Part shown: positions 6,920 through 22,660 of the stretch, piece by piece
Numbering within the stretch: the stretch's first letter is position 1
Layout of the letters: every line of letters starts with the position of its first letter
Source of the DNA: Polyangiaceae bacterium
Lineage (GTDB): Bacteria > Myxococcota_A > Polyangia > Polyangiales > Polyangiaceae
Direction of reading: 5' to 3'
Length of the DNA: 32,837 nt
Assembly: GCA_023150915.1 (NCBI GenBank)
Contig: JAKLKA010000077.1
Span: 1 to 32,837, forward strand
Notes under the pieces: model-generated
The model's database searches: none
Told to the model about the DNA's origin: nothing
The model's input: only the letters and a program-made list of their open reading frames with translations
Made by a program: the position numbers and the translations under genes

Positions 6920-8278
6920 GTGGCTGAGCAAGAGGACGAAAAACAGCTCTCGCGGCGCGCGCGTCGGCGTGCCCAGGCCGAGAGTGAGGACGTCGAGGCG
7001 AGCGCGGCAGACGCGTCGAGCGCCGAGGCAGAAGAGCAGGGCGACGACGACCGCGACGCGGGCGACGCAGAAGCGGGGGCGGCCGAGCCTTCGGCCGACG
7101 CCGACGCTAGCGAGGGCGAAGGCGACGACGCTCCCAAGAAGCTGAGCAAGTCCGAGAAGAAGCGCGCCAAGCAGGAAGAGAAGAGCGCGACCGCTACGGT
7201 GCGCGACCGCAACAAGCGGCTGCGCGAGCAGGGCGTCGCCAAGCGGCGCACGAAGCGGGAAAAAGAGCGGCACGCGGCGGTCGCTCAGGGCCTCGACGCG
7301 TCCGAGATGATGGACGACGCGTTCGCGCGCGGCACCCACGCCACCGCGCAGTTCATCCGCAAGAACGCCAGCTTGCTCCAGTGGCTGGTGGTGCTGGCCG
7401 TCGTCGGCGGCATCGGCTGGCAGGTCTACTCGTGGCGCGCCAAGAAGGCAGCGGGGAAGACCTCCGACGGCCTGATGTCGGGCGTCGACTCCGAGCTCGG
7501 CCGCGTCGGAACCGAGAGCGCCCGCCCGGAAGAGGCCGCCGTCAACGGGCGGCCCACGTTCGCGACCGAAGAGGCCCGGCTCGAGGCCGCCGCGAAGGCC
7601 TTCACCGAGGCCGAGCAGGCGAAGCCGGGGTCGGGCACCGCGATCTTGAGCATGCTGGGCCGCGCGGGCGTGCTCTACGACCAAGGCAAGTTCGACGACG
7701 CCAAGGGGCTGTACGAGAAGGTGCAGGGCTCGGAGCTGGCCAAGCACGACGCCGACGTCCGACTCCGCTCGCTCGAGGGCGTGGGTTTGTGCCTCGAGGC
7801 AAAGGCCGACGCCGACGGCGCGCTGAAGGTGTTCCAAGAGCTCGAGAAATCCGACGAGCCGGGCTTTGCGCCACTGGGCCTCTATCACCAGGCCCGCGTG
7901 CACTTCGCCAAGGGCGACAAAGACAAGGCCAAAGAGCTGCTGACCAAGGTCAAAGAGAAGCTCGACAAGGACAAGTCGCCCTTCATGACCGACAGCTACG
8001 TCGAGAAGGCCGCGCGGGACCTCCTCGCCATCATCGACCCGAGCACCGCGCCGGCGGGCGGGTCGAGTTACAGCCCCGAGCAGCTCGACAAGATGCGCGA
8101 GCAGATCCTGAAAGACCCGGCCAAGCTGAAGAAGATGCTCGAGGACATGGGCAAGCTGAAGGTTCCGTCCATGCCGCCCGTTCCTGGCGGCCCGGTCGAG
8201 CCCGGCGAGGCGCCCGTTCCCGGTCCCGCGCCGGCGCCGGACCCGGACCCGGCGCCGCCGGCCAGCGGAGCACCGTGA
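6920..8278 (+). CDS. Membrane-anchored TPR protein, YfgM-like
   Basis: 452 residues. The first ~145 are cytoplasmic and highly charged, acidic then lysine-rich (KKLSKSEKKRAKQEEK). One transmembrane helix follows (about 150-172, LLQWLVVLAVVGGIGWQVYSW), then a TPR region (AILSMLGRAGVLYDQGKFDDA and similar) and a Pro/Gly/Ala-rich tail. One helix followed by periplasmic TPRs, placed directly before a BamB-like gene, is the yfgM-bamB order of proteobacteria, where YfgM assists periplasmic chaperones at the Sec translocon. Orthology is inferred from architecture and neighbour. GTG at 6920 is preferred because a -10-like element sits seven bases upstream; a GTG at 6872 overlapping the previous stop is possible. 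Confidence 0.7.
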   Translation: MAEQEDEKQLSRRARRRAQAESEDVEASAADASSAEAEEQGDDDRDAGDAEAGAAEPSADADASEGEGDDAPKKLSKSEKKRAKQEEKSATATVRDRNKRLREQGVAKRRTKREKERHAAVAQGLDASEMMDDAFARGTHATAQFIRKNASLLQWLVVLAVVGGIGWQVYSWRAKKAAGKTSDGLMSGVDSELGRVGTESARPEEAAVNGRPTFATEEARLEAAAKAFTEAEQAKPGSGTAILSMLGRAGVLYDQGKFDDAKGLYEKVQGSELAKHDADVRLRSLEGVGLCLEAKADADGALKVFQELEKSDEPGFAPLGLYHQARVHFAKGDKDKAKELLTKVKEKLDKDKSPFMTDSYVEKAARDLLAIIDPSTAPAGGSSYSPEQLDKMREQILKDPAKLKKMLEDMGKLKVPSMPPVPGGPVEPGEAPVPGPAPAPDPDPAPPASGAP

Positions 8279-9579
8279 CTCGAAGCACCGCGACCCGGCG
8301 CACCGCGACCCGGCGCACCGTCACGCGCGGTGCTCGGCTCGGCGCCGCCACGTTGGCCGTGGCAGCGCTCGGGCTGGCCGGTTGCGATGCGCTGCGCGCC
8401 GGCGCCAGCCCCGAGCTGCCCTTATGGAAGTACCGGCCCAGCGGCTCGCTGAGCGTGGTCTACAAGAAGCAGATCGTCGCCGAGATGCGCAAGGTCGGCG
8501 AGCCGTACGAACGCGGGCAACCCGAGATCGACGCCAAGAACCGGCGCCTGTTCGTGGGCTCCAGTGACCGTGGGCTGTACGCCATCCGCGCCGTCACCGG
8601 CGAGGTCCTGTGGCGCTTCGAGACGCTGGGTTTCGTGCAGTGCGCGCCGCTCTACGACGCCGGCGAAGACGTGGTCTACTTCGGCTCGAACGACGGCGCG
8701 CTCTACAAGGTGAAGGCCGCCACCGGCGAGCTGATCTGGCGATTTTCGACCAACGCCGAGGTGGCACGCCGCCCGGTGCTGGAGCGCGGCGTGGTCTACG
8801 CGGTCAACGCCAACGACACGGTGGTGGCCCTCGAGTCCAAGACCGGCAAGCTGATCTGGAGCCAGCACCGCACGCCGGCGCTGGGCATGGAGGTCGCGGG
8901 CTATTCGGGCCCGCTGGTCTGGCGCGGCAAGCTCTTCGTGGGCTTCAGCGACGGCACGGTCACGGCGTTCGACGCCAAGCGTGGCGACGAGGTCTGGCAG
9001 CCGGTCGATCTGGCGGCCGAGGCCGAGCAGCGCCAGGGCGAGCTGCCAACGTACCTCGACGTGGACACGACGCCCGTGGCGGACACGATCGAAGCCGGCG
9101 CGGTGGTCTACGTGGGCAGCTACGCCGGCGGGGTGTGGGCGCTGGACGCCGACAGCGGCACGCCGGTCTGGTCGAACCCGGCGGTGGAAGGCGTGAGCGA
9201 GCTCACGCTCTGGACCGAGCCCGCGCATCCGCCGCGCGACGGCAAGGGCCCAACCGTGCCGGAGAAGAAGCTGCTCCTGGCGGCCACGGGAACCACCGGC
9301 CTGTGGGCGCTCGATCCCGAGACCGGCCGCGACGAGTGGCGCCGGTCGCTGCCCGACGGCGGGATTTCGGCGCCGGTGCCGGTGCGAGGCGCGCTCTTGG
9401 TCAACACCAGCAAGCTGGGCGTGTTCTTGCTATCGCCGGTGGACGGCAGCGTGATCGACGGGATCCACATGGTGGACGGCTCGGCGCACACGCCCGCGGC
9501 CTACGGCAACCGCGCGTTCGTGGTCTCGAACCACGGCGACCTGCTCAGCCTGCACGTGGCCGGTCCGGCCGGGCGCTGA
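8275..9579 (+). CDS. bamB: BamB-like PQQ-type beta-propeller lipoprotein
   Basis: 434 residues. The GTG start overlaps the previous stop (GTGA). An Arg/Thr-rich n-region is followed by LGAATLAVAALGLAGC, a lipoprotein signal with lipobox LAGC. The body is a run of propeller blades with the PQQ-like signature, e.g. GLYAIRAVTGEVLWRFET, ALYKVKAATGELIWRFST, TVVALESKTGKLIWS and GLWALDPETGRDEWRR. This matches BamB, the periplasmic BAM subunit that helps deliver substrates to BamA. Adjacency to the YfgM-like gene supports this, although many PQQ-propeller proteins look alike and a binding residue set for BamA was not checked. The 3' end lies inside a 25-bp tandem repeat, so the last residues HVAGPAGR are part of the repeat. 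Confidence 0.75.
   Translation: MTRSTATRRTATRRTVTRGARLGAATLAVAALGLAGCDALRAGASPELPLWKYRPSGSLSVVYKKQIVAEMRKVGEPYERGQPEIDAKNRRLFVGSSDRGLYAIRAVTGEVLWRFETLGFVQCAPLYDAGEDVVYFGSNDGALYKVKAATGELIWRFSTNAEVARRPVLERGVVYAVNANDTVVALESKTGKLIWSQHRTPALGMEVAGYSGPLVWRGKLFVGFSDGTVTAFDAKRGDEVWQPVDLAAEAEQRQGELPTYLDVDTTPVADTIEAGAVVYVGSYAGGVWALDADSGTPVWSNPAVEGVSELTLWTEPAHPPRDGKGPTVPEKKLLLAATGTTGLWALDPETGRDEWRRSLPDGGISAPVPVRGALLVNTSKLGVFLLSPVDGSVIDGIHMVDGSAHTPAAYGNRAFVVSNHGDLLSLHVAGPAGR
8285..8314 (+). repeat. In-frame 15-bp direct repeat in the BamB-like signal region
   Basis: Two perfect copies of GCACCGCGACCCGGC (8285-8299 and 8300-8314) encode Thr-Ala-Thr-Arg-Arg twice. They lengthen the basic n-region of the lipoprotein signal peptide. 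A degenerate third copy follows. Confidence 0.8.
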
Positions 9580-9680
9580 CGTGACCGGTCCGGCCGGGCG
9601 CTGACGTGACCGGTCCGGCCGGGCGCTGACGTGACCGGTCCGGCCGGGCGCTGACGTGGCCGGTCCGACCGGGCGCTGAC
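9556..9680 (+). repeat. Five tandem 25-bp repeats spanning the bamB stop codon
   Basis: Five copies (9556-9580, 9581-9605, 9606-9630, 9631-9655, 9656-9680) of GTGRCCGGTCCGRCCGGGCG plus CTGAC. The first copy is coding and contains the TGA of bamB. Copies 2-4 have GTGACC; 1 and 5 have GTGGCC; 5 has one further change. The unit is dense in short palindromes (GACCGGTC, CCGGCCGG). Because 25 is one more than a multiple of three, the repeated TGAs fall in all three frames. Likely produced by slippage; a role in ending transcription or translation is possible. Confidence 0.9.
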
Positions 9681-9690
9681 GGCGCGAGCC

Positions 9691-9785
9691 GCGAGCCCGG
9701 TTCTCTGGGGGCTGGCGGCGAAATCCCCGCGCGCGAGCCCGGTTCTTAGATCGCATAAGATAGATTATGTTAACTTTCTGATTCA
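9691..9785. other. Spacer with a 14-bp direct repeat and a short AT-rich island
   Basis: GCGAGCCCGGTTCT occurs at 9691-9704 and 9733-9746. From about 9745 to 9785 the sequence becomes AT-rich, including CATAAGATAGATTATG with inverted ends CATAA/TTATG, in strong contrast to the flanking G+C-rich repeats. No gene is seen here. Confidence 0.6.
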
Positions 9786-9810
9786 CCCCAGCCAGGCGGC
9801 GGGCACCGGC

Positions 9811-10325
9811 CCGCCCCACGGAATCCAGGCGTGGAACACGCGGACACCAGGCGTGGAACACGCGCCGTGTCCCGCGCTTTCTGTCCGCCCCATGGACACC
9901 AGGCGTGGAACACGGCCGTGTCCCGCGCTTCCTGTCCGCCCCATGGACACCAGGCGTGGAACACGGGCCGTGTCCCGCGCTTCCTGTCCGCCCCATGGAC
10001 ACCAGGCGCGGAACACGCGCCCTGTCCCGCGCTTTCTGTCCGCCACGCGGACACCAGGCGTGGAACACGGCCGTGTCCCGCGCTTCCTGTCCGCCCCATG
10101 GACACCAGGCGTGGAACACGGCCATGTCCCGCGCTTTCTGTCCGCCCCATGGACACCAGGCGCGGATCACGGCCCTGTCCCGCGCTTTCTGTCCGCCCCA
10201 TGGACACCAGGCGTGGATCACGGCCGTGTTCCGCGCTTTCTGTCCGCCCCATTGACACCAGGCGTGGATCACGCGCCCTGTCCCGCGCTTTCTGTCCGCC
10301 CCATTGACACCAGGCGCGGATCACG
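9811..10325. repeat. Tandem array of 51-52-bp units (nine full, two partial)
   Basis: Full units begin with GACACCAGGCG at 9843, 9895, 9946, 9998, 10050, 10101, 10152, 10203 and 10254. A degenerate partial unit lies at about 9811-9842 and a truncated one at 10306-10325. Periods are 52, 51, 52, 52, 51, 51, 51, 51 and 52. Each unit has a near-palindrome GGAACACGGCCGTGTCCC and, across the junction, GTGTCC/GGACAC arms. Variation sits mostly at the centre (G, CG or GG after ACACG), in GGAAC versus GGATC, and at the junction (CCATGG, CACGCGG, CCATTG). All six frames are nearly open, but the 51/52 alternation breaks any coding period, so it is probably non-coding. It lies between convergent genes. 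Confidence 0.93.
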
Positions 10326-10328
10326 GGC

Positions 10329-10368
10329 GGCGATCACAAGATCGTAGTCACAAGACGAAGTGATCGCC
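10329..10368 (-). terminator. Inverted repeat spanning the phosphodiesterase stop codon
   Basis: GGCGATCAC (10329-10337) and GTGATCGCC (10360-10368) are perfect 9-bp arms around a 22-base loop. The right arm encodes the last residues of the phosphodiesterase. There is no T-tract, so an intrinsic terminator is doubtful; it may shield the mRNA end. Confidence 0.35.
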
Positions 10369-11115
10369 GATGCCCATCACGCCCAGATTGACGCCCTTCA
10401 GGCTTGCGCACTCTTGCTCGACCTCGCCCTGAAATACGGGCTTGATGTGGTAGAGCATCGTCGGCAGGTCCTTGGGGTTGCCGAACTTCTTCAAGTCTTT
10501 GGCCAGGGTCCGCGGGGTGTGGTGGCCGCTGACCGTCGCCAGCTTCTGCTCCCGGTTCGGGAAGCTGACCTCCATCAACAGCGCCTTGAGGTTCGGCGTC
10601 TCGCGCAGCAGCTCCCAGAAACGATCGGTCGGTCCCGTGTCTCCGCTGTACGCGATGGCGGTCGTGGGGGTCTCGATGATGAACCCCGCGGATTCGATGG
10701 TGTGGTTCACCATCACGCTGCGCACCCGGTAGCCAGCCACCACCTGGGGTTTCTCGGGCATCAGCGGCACGAACTGGATCGTCGGCGTCGCCTTGCTCGG
10801 GATCTCGGAGAAGTCCGGCCAGAGCAAGTTATTGAAGAAGTGCTTCTTCAGGACCTTGATGGTCCAGGGCGACGCCGCCACGATCAGCGGCTCGCACTCG
10901 GCCTGGCACCGGTTGTCGGCAATGGTCGCCAGGTCGCGCACGTGATCCAGGTGGGCGTGGCTGACCAGCACCGCCTGCAGCCGGAACTGCAGCTTCAGAT
11001 CGAGCCCGCTGGTGAGCGAGCCGGCATCGAGCGCCATGCGCTCGTCGAGGACGAACGCGCTGGTGCGATGCTTCGGCGTCTCTCCGCCGTGGCAGCCGAC
11101 TACGCGAAGGTCCAT
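10348..11115 (-). CDS. Metallo-beta-lactamase-fold phosphodiesterase, class II cyclic-nucleotide type
   Basis: 255 residues, no signal peptide. The metal site reads SHAHLDHVRDL (His53, His55, Asp57, His58), the HxHLDH signature of class II 3',5'-cyclic nucleotide phosphodiesterases within the metallo-beta-lactamase superfamily. Later motifs fit the fold: VMVNHTIESAGFII, IAYSGDTGPTDRFW, VSGHHTPRTLAKDL and LYHIKPVFQ. The expected reaction is hydrolysis of cAMP or cGMP to the 5'-monophosphate, but related enzymes cut other phosphodiesters, so the substrate is inferred. It has its own promoter and faces the BamB-like gene across the tandem array. Its product could intersect with the cyclase-like domain of the kinase at 18844, though nothing in the sequence links them directly. 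Confidence 0.78.
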   Translation of the reverse strand: MDLRVVGCHGGETPKHRTSAFVLDERMALDAGSLTSGLDLKLQFRLQAVLVSHAHLDHVRDLATIADNRCQAECEPLIVAASPWTIKVLKKHFFNNLLWPDFSEIPSKATPTIQFVPLMPEKPQVVAGYRVRSVMVNHTIESAGFIIETPTTAIAYSGDTGPTDRFWELLRETPNLKALLMEVSFPNREQKLATVSGHHTPRTLAKDLKKFGNPKDLPTMLYHIKPVFQGEVEQECASLKGVNLGVMGIGDHFVL

Positions 11116-11279: not shown

Positions 11280-12995
<1,716 letters not shown>

Positions 12996-21800: not shown

Positions 21801-22638
21801 GCTCGGGCAGACCCAGCGGCACCTGTCCGACGACGATCACCCCGGCCGCGGGTGGCTCGCTCGCGCCGAGGGCTACGCCGCGCTGGTCGCCGGCGACGCC
21901 TCGACGTACCTGGAGAAGACCGAGCTCGCGGCCCGCTGCTTCGAGGCCGCAAGCGAAGAGCGTCACGCGCTGACCTTCCGCACCAGCGTCGGATTCGCAC
22001 ACATCGCCCTCGGCAAGTACGCCGAAGCGGCAGCCCTCTTGCGCGACACGCTGAGCCGGGCCGAGCGCATGGGGCTGTCGCACACCCGGGCCATCGCCGA
22101 ACACAACCTGGGGTACGCCGTGGCGCTCGCTGGCGATCTTCCGGCTGGCATCGCCATCGAACGCGACGCCATCGCGGACGCGCGCGCCCAGAAAGATCGC
22201 TGGGTCGAGTGCGTCTCGCACACTTACCTGGCCGATCTGCTGTGGCGAGCGGGGGACGCGGCGGGCGCCCTCGAGTCTGCGATCGCCAGCGCCGCGCTGT
22301 CGGACCGCCCGAACCGCGTGCTCGCGCTGGCCATCGCGGCCCGCGCCGAGCTCACCCTCGGGCGCCTCGACGCGGCTCGCGCCCGTGCGACGGAGTCCGC
22401 CGCGCTGCTCGACGAGCTGGGCAGCATCGAAGACGGCGAAGCGCTGGCCCGTCTGGCATTCGTCGAGGTGATGGTCGCGTGCGGCGACCTCCCCCTGGCC
22501 CAGGCAGCCCTGGCTCGCGCCCAAGAGCGGCTCGAAGCCCGCGCGGCGAAGATCTCGGACCCGGAGCTTCGGAAGAGCTTCCTCGAGAACGTGCCCGACC
22601 ACGCGCAGACGCGGTCGTTCGCGCTGCGCGCGGGCTGA
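18844..22638 (+). CDS. Ser/Thr kinase with cyclase-like, AAA ATPase and TPR domains (PknK-like)
   Basis: 1264 residues, cytoplasmic. The Hanks kinase domain (about 10-265) has the glycine loop GSGAMGVV, Lys40, HRDLKPSN (126-133), DFGIA and SPRYMSPEQA, so it should be active. Residues about 290-395 (CVVLVFGVTSDLTPLTERNG, AALIFASLGTASDVVAQAAR, RLSIATGAG) look like a degraded class III nucleotidyl cyclase domain without the metal aspartates. An AAA/NACHT-type ATPase follows (Walker A GEPGIGKS, 471-478; Walker B VVLVLEDLHFGD), then about 450 residues of TPR-like helices. TTG is the only start before the glycine loop. This family integrates signals and phosphorylates regulators; ligand and target are unknown. 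Confidence 0.9.
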   Translation: MKRGEVVGGRFEVQSLSGSGAMGVVWRALDRHRGEPVALKLLRPGADSERFLRESHLLAELDHPGIVRYVAHGSSDEGPYLVMEWLEGESLAQRLERAELTPAQAVGMVAHLASAIGAAHRRQIVHRDLKPSNVFLVGRALDDVRVLDFGIARQGAFGESELTQTGVIVGSPRYMSPEQARGSKNIGPAADVWALGAILFRCVTGQPLLTDGPMELVLSDLLMSPVPRVADRRSDVPPALDDLVARLLSKEPEDRPRDGDAVARALRELDLGDTLDAPGPASHRDVAMTLAEQRFTCVVLVFGVTSDLTPLTERNGGSLVARDGGAALIFASLGTASDVVAQAARTALEIQKRHPEARLSIATGAGPARDLTHPERSIVARAEALLAPREPGIWLDQVSTGLLEARFALSRHPDRPGEAALVSERLDPTPLRRLLGRSTPCVGRERELGVLESLLCETLSDSVARVAVVTGEPGIGKSRVRYELLRRLEVTAKNAGSPVPEIWLGRGDPIAEGSPLGLLGSALRFGLGVALDAPREQVRDLLVTRVHRAHSLDVAERVADALCEVVTGESEAPRRLSPLLLGDLLMAAWEDFLTGELEQHPVVLVLEDLHFGDWGSVRFVDAALRQHADRRFFTLGLARPGVSQRFPSLWAERRPLVLPLPELGRRAGEALVHSVLGDGVDPHLARAVVDRAGGNAFFLEELIRAVAEGGASAELPGSVRALAEARIVGLDPELRQVLRAASVFGTVFWTAGVAELMGRHPDAVRADLARLTERELLTKRRDARFAGQEEFVFRHAFVRDAAHSMLTPDDLERGHRSAAAWLERAGEREPLILAEHLRRGNEPARAAPHLCRAAAQAISANDFESALAHARRALETEPDGELAGELHLLTSEAHLWRGEAEAREESARRAMASFTRLSPRWYVAAAETARIASRAGRHDEVATLFEQVAADDTPATAGARAVVLAQLCVPALRAGQTGLAARIFDALGQTQRHLSDDDHPGRGWLARAEGYAALVAGDASTYLEKTELAARCFEAASEERHALTFRTSVGFAHIALGKYAEAAALLRDTLSRAERMGLSHTRAIAEHNLGYAVALAGDLPAGIAIERDAIADARAQKDRWVECVSHTYLADLLWRAGDAAGALESAIASAALSDRPNRVLALAIAARAELTLGRLDAARARATESAALLDELGSIEDGEALARLAFVEVMVACGDLPLAQAALARAQERLEARAAKISDPELRKSFLENVPDHAQTRSFALRAG

Positions 22639-22660
22639 CCCCGCCCGCCGGCGGTGGGCT

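Follow-up and report, generated by a model that had tools for sequence, protein, structure and literature searches.

A tandem array of 51/52-bp units in the window (the whole stretch of 32,837 nucleotides of Polyangiaceae DNA analyzed here) was found to belong to a genus-wide class of repeat arrays. Probably these arrays are BIME/REP-like elements, non-autonomous and each family spread by its own RAYT-like transposase. The arrays are dispersed, keep a fixed period, share a motif, lie at the 3′ ends of genes and in some cases adjoin transposase genes, and different families occupy orthologous sites. Three genomes of the genus were compared: the genome of the window itself (G000; 8.0 Mb in 295 contigs) and those of two congeners (G001 and G002). 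A preliminary description of the array had pointed to constrained sequence blocks, which are borne out below, and had proposed a protein-binding array, a transcription barrier, a chromosome-organizing repeat or a small-RNA template; none of these four proposals named a transposase-linked repeat. The recurrence of the unit in its own genome and its place in a genus-wide class go beyond that description.

The window array and its surroundings

TRF placed the window array, of the family named F1, at positions 9842–10326 (+ strand; period 51, 9.4 copies, 92% matches, score 794), and a covariance model tiled positions 9865–10327 with nine core-to-core units. Truncated F1 pieces fill positions 9811–9864 to the left of these full units, the left edge of the array (9811–9841, + strand) being made of pieces of ~22–30 bp. 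Where ends of F1 arrays were seen, they mostly lie within a unit dyad, and no sequence framing all F1 arrays was found by eye. The core-to-core lengths of the eight units parsed were 51, 52, 52, 51, 51, 51, 51, and 52 bp; the two lengths reported earlier were thereby recovered, but not in strict alternation. The extra base of the longer units is located at the core center (ACACGG-CCGTGT vs. ACACGGG- or ACACGCG-), where the length changes had been described. Each F1 unit carries two dyads, the tip TGTCCGCCCCATGGACA and the core GGAACACGGCCGTGTCC. In the window array, the arms of the core dyad are GGAACACG..CGTGTTCC, and the tip dyad is TGTCC-N7-GGACA, with seven exact matches to the motif. All eight parsed units fold as a single hairpin, usually of ~20 pairs, at −22.9 to −31.2 kcal/mol, and the near-palindromic core and second dyad of the preliminary description are both present.

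No match to the array was found in Rfam at the gathering score, where only two tRNAs were detected in the whole window, and a search of positions 9500–10400 at E values up to 1 gave nine sub-threshold matches, the best at E 0.019 and none credible. The proposal of a small-RNA template found no backing in these searches. Likewise, a terminator is not supported, as a consensus scan of positions 9300–10700 detected no U-tract terminator. A transcription barrier or a protein-bound array is possible as a secondary effect. The unit had no match in plasmid and phage collections.

The genes on either side converge, as had been stated. The left one (+ strand, 8353–9579 according to a codon-usage script, with a start at 8275 in another run) encodes a protein that looks beta-propeller-like by eye, and the right one (− strand, 10348–11115) encodes a metallo-beta-lactamase-fold protein (PF12706, PF02112). 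Their ends face the array at positions 9579 and 10348, respectively. A pattern match on the + strand at positions 9752–9773 (CGCATAAGATAGATTATGTTAA) revealed a dif-like XerCD site, as judged by the dif consensus. Each of the three genus genomes has one copy of this site, with the same letters throughout the pattern; it lies some 40–70 bp from the window array, of which it is not thought to be a part. In G001, the GC skew, which is weak, changes from mostly positive to negative ~45 kb beyond dif and is positive again ~160 kb beyond, and the window probably spans the replication terminus. The closeness of the array to the dif-like site is apparently a coincidence, since the corresponding place in G001 lacks a 51-bp array and the terminus of that genome lacks an array cluster. 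Indeed, the 400 kb around the G001 dif contain one 52-bp array (a small test), the same one that was caught in a spaced, unselected 400-kb sample of that genome. A clustering of arrays at the terminus is unsupported by both samples.

Other repeats were observed in these regions. A second tandem array (9554–9681, 25 bp × 5) begins inside the end of the + strand gene, repeats its stop codon, and lies on the other side of the dif-like site from the F1 array. A 9-bp array at positions 11292–11396 belongs to a chaperonin (Cpn60) gene, whose tail of GGM repeats it encodes. Near the dif of G001, repeats of 53 bp (L326:17366–17472) and 159 bp (L321:10411–10727) are rich in CGCCACGA.

Dispersal and shared architecture of the 51/52-bp families

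Using a DNA search, we identified further F1 arrays in G000 on contigs C15, C26 (two arrays), C40, C67, C205, and C281. A covariance model (R1) built from 24 F1 units added contigs C57 and C200, both at contig ends and maybe representing one locus; F1 arrays are present at seven or eight other places in this genome. A neutral local minisatellite would be expected at one locus only. The unit is not so confined, which contradicts the refuting outcome named in the preliminary description (a unit occurring nowhere else), and the earlier view that the array is more than such a minisatellite holds. Weaker R1 matches on C68 and C279 corresponded to other families. A DNA search of 58 relatives with the F1 unit gave no convincing match outside its own genome. 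R1 was needed to see the family in G002, where it found 38 matches missed by the DNA search; it found none in G001 at an E value of 0.1 or better. One weak R1 match was obtained in each of six other genomes, and these were rejected as arrays, as TRF shows no 51/52-bp array at the six loci. A 16-base piece of the unit matched at least 114 stretches in a collection of genome contigs, with a single match in each of the 80 stretches listed, which we took as chance.

TRF analysis of the G000 and G002 loci revealed arrays of quite different sequence with a period of 51 or 52. A joint query with nine consensus sequences showed lineage-specific expansions: F6, F5, and F7 in G002, F2 and F4 in G000, F3 in both, and F8 in G001, which also harbors a further family, F9. 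A total of 61 array loci were mapped in the three genus genomes, after the exclusion of L326 (the 53-bp repeat of G001) and of L270 (the same place as L332) and the addition of L233; they include the window array together with its ortholog L229, as well as two arrays that share a single gap (L177). The spacing between units was 51 or 52 in 201 of 218 cases, a figure that describes regularity and is no test of the period, as the arrays were preselected for a period of 50–53 or its double. The period histogram is similarly biased, most loci having been chosen because they match a unit. In unselected samples, 305 kb of G000 yielded a single 51-bp array, and two 400-kb samples of G001 yielded a single 52-bp array that was caught in both; no such array was found in 394 kb from seven other genera.

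A second model, R2, with 144 or 150 candidates scored per genome and both strands counted, gave at least 140 matches in G000 (E 0.05), 42 in G001 (E 0.05), and at least 148 in G002 (E 1). It should be noted that the G000 and G002 counts are near the number scored, which in G002 was 150 of 14463 candidates. In 39 genomes of other genera, R2 found 0–4 weak matches each at E 0.05, the best having an E value of 2e-4. Units inside one array tend to be alike, and at L399, L227, and L177 arrays that belong to different families directly adjoin one another. The assemblies break at arrays (G000 C57, C67, and C200, and the ends of several G002 contigs), which means that draft genomes understate their copy numbers. 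No paper on 51/52-bp repeat arrays in this group was apparent by title among the top-ranked literature matches, and exact-phrase matches were unrelated.

Two observations concern arrays with other unit lengths. The F6 arrays at L388:4972–5460 and L398:4780–5083 of G002 mix 51-bp and 42-bp units, with one half-unit constant and the other in two alternative forms. In another genus of the family, genome G015 carries a 43-bp tandem array (L354:19173–19438) with two dyads visible by eye, maybe an analogous system with another period.

The families differ widely in sequence outside one motif, TGNCS-N7-SGNCA, which was read by eye from consensus half-units (F9 being outside that set) and then counted. 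It occurs 216 times in the 61 arrays, compared with once for the reversed motif, and 56 arrays contain at least one exact copy. With other spacers from 2 to 15, the motif occurs 0–19 times each, except for 48 occurrences with a spacer of 14. The five arrays without an exact copy are four of F5 and one of F8; four of the five (L239, L332, L399, and L401) differ from the motif by one base, the fifth being L400. For the longer skeleton TG-N12-tip-N12-CA, the counts were 115 inside arrays or no more than 60 bp from one, 7 in the remaining intergenic DNA (units that the array list does not include), and 0 in 1.64 Mb called as coding; the reversed skeleton was found nowhere. The constraint on the second dyad of the preliminary description extends to families whose sequences otherwise differ.

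Between families, compensatory changes preserve the pairing of the dyads. This was seen in an ungapped alignment (A2) of 20 representatives, namely 19 of the 26 listed and one window unit; L332:8097 and two rows of L401 were excluded as out of phase, and L176, L177:2277, L233, and L389 as array-edge, odd, or similar rows. Pairing cells amounted to 70.5% (59.1% in shuffles), double-change cells to 64 (38.4 in shuffles), and covariation to 0.339 (0.184 in shuffles, sd 0.022), none of these values being reached in any of 500 shuffles, while versions slid out of register gave a covariation of at most 0.158. Two weaker measures, double changes in 17 of 21 pairs and 49 further pair types, were reached by 29 and 5 of the 500 shuffles, respectively. 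No compensatory changes were found within F1 alone. In the stronger families, the unit is an inverted pair of half-units of 25–26 bp; of 18 consensus units, only 8 had an extended dyad symmetry above that of 95% of their shuffles.

Transposase genes and gene ends

By comparing the flanks of the arrays, we found a recurring gene whose product of ~270 amino acids is, by sequence, a RAYT-like HUH/Y1 tyrosine transposase. The NCBIfam model for REP-associated tyrosine transposases (NF047646) matched all four copies tested (E 1.8e-9, 8.1e-8, 1.4e-11, and 1.8e-10), with scores of 32–45 bits, under its 80-bit cut-off. A profile of these four copies matched E. coli TnpA_REP (PDB 4ER8; E 5.2e-8) with the HxH and Tyr columns aligned. 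The aligned Tyr is, by count, residue 115 of the 4ER8 chain, and Y115F is named as a catalytic mutant of this enzyme in the relevant portion of PMC8266576. Both H47/H49 and Y102 are invariant in the alignment of the four copies (A3), in which an HxH motif and a Y1-type Tyr are present by sequence. Their HUH signatures are DHLH, EHFH, DHLH, and EHTH, and the Tyr motif of the consensus is RYVHLNPCRA; the copy on G000 C26 has the motifs MPDHLHL and RYVWLNPCRA. Pfam Y1_Tnp (PF01797) had no match to the transposase in the three genus genomes or in the four copies. A C-terminal HTH is possible, as three of the four proteins gave weak matches to HTH_28, HTH_29, HTH_36, HTH_23, or the ISL3 HTH (E 0.004–1.2, all below cut-off); the C26 copy gave none.

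At an E value of 1e-10, the genus genomes contain nine copies of this gene: three in G000, one in G001, and five in G002. Four paralogs lie ~65–110 bp from arrays of four different families: F1 on G000 C26, F2 on G000 C205, F3 on G002 C43, and F6 on G002 C4. On C205, arrays flank the gene on both sides, and on C43 a half unit is present on the far side. The G001 copy has a single R2 match ~370 bp away. With this match counted, five of the nine copies have an array or a model match no farther off than ~370 bp. No nearby array is reported for the copies on G000 C123 and on G002 C192, C152, and C31, under the G002 scoring of 150 of 14463 R2 candidates. The G002 site matching that of G000 C26 has a single unit and no transposase gene. 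Gene copies and R2 matches numbered 1 and 42 in G001, 3 and at least 140 in G000, and 5 and at least 148 in G002, where the E value was looser. Among 57 genomes of other genera, 4 carry a relative of the transposase, and all R2 matches in these 4 are weak and scattered. A conserved stretch (AGTTGCGTG and ATCGGC), possibly a promoter or binding site, was recognized by eye in the 5′ flanks of four of the RAYT-like genes, between the start codon and the array (L174:12374–12450, L406:3366–3440, L177:3160–3240, and L396:4975–5060).

The arrays lie close behind genes, the median distance to the nearest stop codon being 25 bp (51 loci). Among the 39 loci with called genes on both sides, 19 were convergent, 18 co-directional, and 2 divergent, compared with 18, 92, and 35 of 145 unselected G000 gaps (Fisher p = 3.6e-6 for the convergent excess and 0.007 for the divergent deficit); with duplicates removed, 17 of 37 were convergent (p = 2.1e-5). 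These counts depend on calls by a simple codon-usage script, some of which are surely wrong, and the other 22 of the 61 loci have one side without a called gene, as a rule a contig end.

Orthologous sites were compared where sequence was at hand. The same family was found at the same site for the window array and G002 C38 (F1, with 9 and 4 units, respectively), and likewise at the site of G000 C249 and at that of G000 C110 (F3 in each case). At four sites, the family differed between species: F1 on G000 C40 corresponds to F3 then F5 on G002 C85; an F2-like array on G000 C197 to F7 at the end of G002 C167 and the start of C137; F3 on G000 C152 to F6 on G002 C5 (one flank only); and F6 on G002 C147 to F8 at G001 C2:1442770. 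In four G000/G002 comparisons, the array was present in one species only, and G001 had no arrays at two further orthologous sites. A short gap without a unit, seen by eye between two stop codons at positions 22633–22660 of the window, matches a G002 site carrying ~1.7 units (L233:9301–9388). No clean insertion with target duplication was seen by eye at the compared sites. Because orthologous sites are occupied by different families across three related genomes, the turnover of the repeats and their co-evolution with the enzyme can be tested directly.

This location behind stop codons and between convergent genes, the sites kept while families differ, and the pairing kept through double changes would also suit bidirectional terminators or insulators useful to the host, whose strong hairpins are kept while their sequence is free to change. 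We consider this explanation unlikely, as a plain hairpin would not need the specific TG..CA motif that is conserved, no U-tract terminator was detected by the consensus scan of the window array region, F1 arrays are, by eye, oriented regardless of the direction of the gene upstream, several orthologous sites are empty, and the adjacency to transposase genes is left unexplained.

Proposed mechanism and relation to known systems

We infer that the units are moved by the transposases, which would recognize them and by some route amplify them in tandem. The building block would be the half-unit of 25–26 bp, with alternating orientation, so that a pair of half-units gives a 51/52-bp unit and its two dyads. 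The tip dyad TGNCS-N7-SGNCA would be recognized, as a folded single strand or as a duplex, by a divergent family of RAYT-like HUH/Y1 transposases whose genes lie elsewhere in these genomes, and each enzyme would spread and amplify its own cognate family. As insertion directly after a stop codon is presumably tolerated, arrays would persist mainly there. Copy-number change and invasion by other families would then exchange the sequence at a site and leave its architecture intact.

The fixed dyad motif with its exact 7-bp spacer and the period of 51.5 bp could instead reflect a docking array for a dimeric sequence-specific DNA-binding protein, for example in chromosome organization, with sites on one helix face every 5 turns; the window array adjoining a dif-like site would fit such a role. 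We regard this as quite unlikely, given that no cluster surrounds the dif of G001 in the small test described above, that the families differ widely apart from the motif, and that the transposase itself could be the binder. A neutral minisatellite, arising by slippage at hairpins without a trans-acting partner, is very improbable: it would account for the variable copy number, the presence or absence of arrays at orthologous sites, and the likeness of units within an array, but the same families at many loci require copying between loci, the motif and period are common to families of different sequence, no full-skeleton unit occurs in called coding DNA, and the transposase genes lie adjacent.

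Compared with known elements, the cognate repeats proposed here resemble the minisatellite-bearing MITEs treated in part of PMC4596501 in being dispersed small elements with internal tandem repeats, and differ from them in that no common frame surrounds the F1 arrays by eye. Likenesses are also seen with the TIRYTs of PMC3733652, which probably equal the TnpA_REP subclass 2.1 described in PMC6006769. As presented there, subclass 2.1 proteins are longer and have a C-terminal HTH_23/HTH_28-like extension, their HUH signatures are NHVH or NH[YF]H (DHLH being listed for subclass 2.2), and automatic and manual searches found no REP-like sequence near their genes. The TIRYT repeats, in the part of PMC3733652 describing them, are single, dimeric, or grouped, and many, not all, have GGGGWSAS. 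The present proteins agree with this group in length, in the Tyr motif Y[IV]HLNP, and in their weak HTH matches, and the repeat motif contains GG[AT][CG]A; a perfect GGGGWSAS was found in none of 460 tip half-sites, and one with a single mismatch in 113 of 460 (11% expected by chance given SGNCA). Unlike subclass 2.1 as so described, the HUH signature is DHLH, EHFH, or EHTH, and long fixed-period hairpin arrays occur beside the genes.

These likenesses permit a joint reading that we offer tentatively, holding it possible rather than probable. In it, the RAYT-like transposases of this genus would compete with one another, and each would carry an extra DNA-binding part at its C terminus and have its own satellite of fixed 51/52-bp hairpin pairs. 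The satellites would share a common recognition architecture and replace one another in place at the same gene-end sites, the enzyme serving as a length ruler that sets two half-units per 5 helical turns. If these proteins belonged in or near subclass 2.1, this would supply a hairpin substrate for that group; the reading is weakened by the mismatch between their HUH signatures and those of subclass 2.1. Should the assignment hold, the repeat class may be linked to long RAYT-like transposases without a reported hairpin partner.

A further close system is that of REPs, BIMEs, and RAYTs, the REPtron, as far as it is covered by the portions of PMC2817692 and PMC8266576 considered here. RAYTs are flanked by inverted REPs, BIMEs contain alternating REPs, and cognate repeats are abundant (PMC2817692); GTAG is crucial for the E. 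coli enzyme (PMC8266576). The units analyzed here differ in being a precise 51/52-bp pair with TGNCS-N7-SGNCA and no GTAG. Only 6 of 230 units contain GTAG, compared with a mean of 60 after letter shuffling, whereas GGAG occurs in 69 of 230 (shuffled, 109) and CGTC in 67 of 230 (shuffled, 108); TGNCS-N7-SGNCA may serve in place of GTAG. The putative transposase differs too: it is longer, its C terminus may carry an HTH, and its scores do not reach the RAYT family cut-off. As in REPs and BIMEs, the units are short extragenic palindromes in many copies, in tandem clusters, and with alternating orientation and regular spacing, and a predicted HUH/Y1 tyrosine transposase has units nearby, its paralogs standing beside different families. 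The present system would thus work like a REPtron and, its repeats having no GTAG, is best called a variant rather than a standard REP system.
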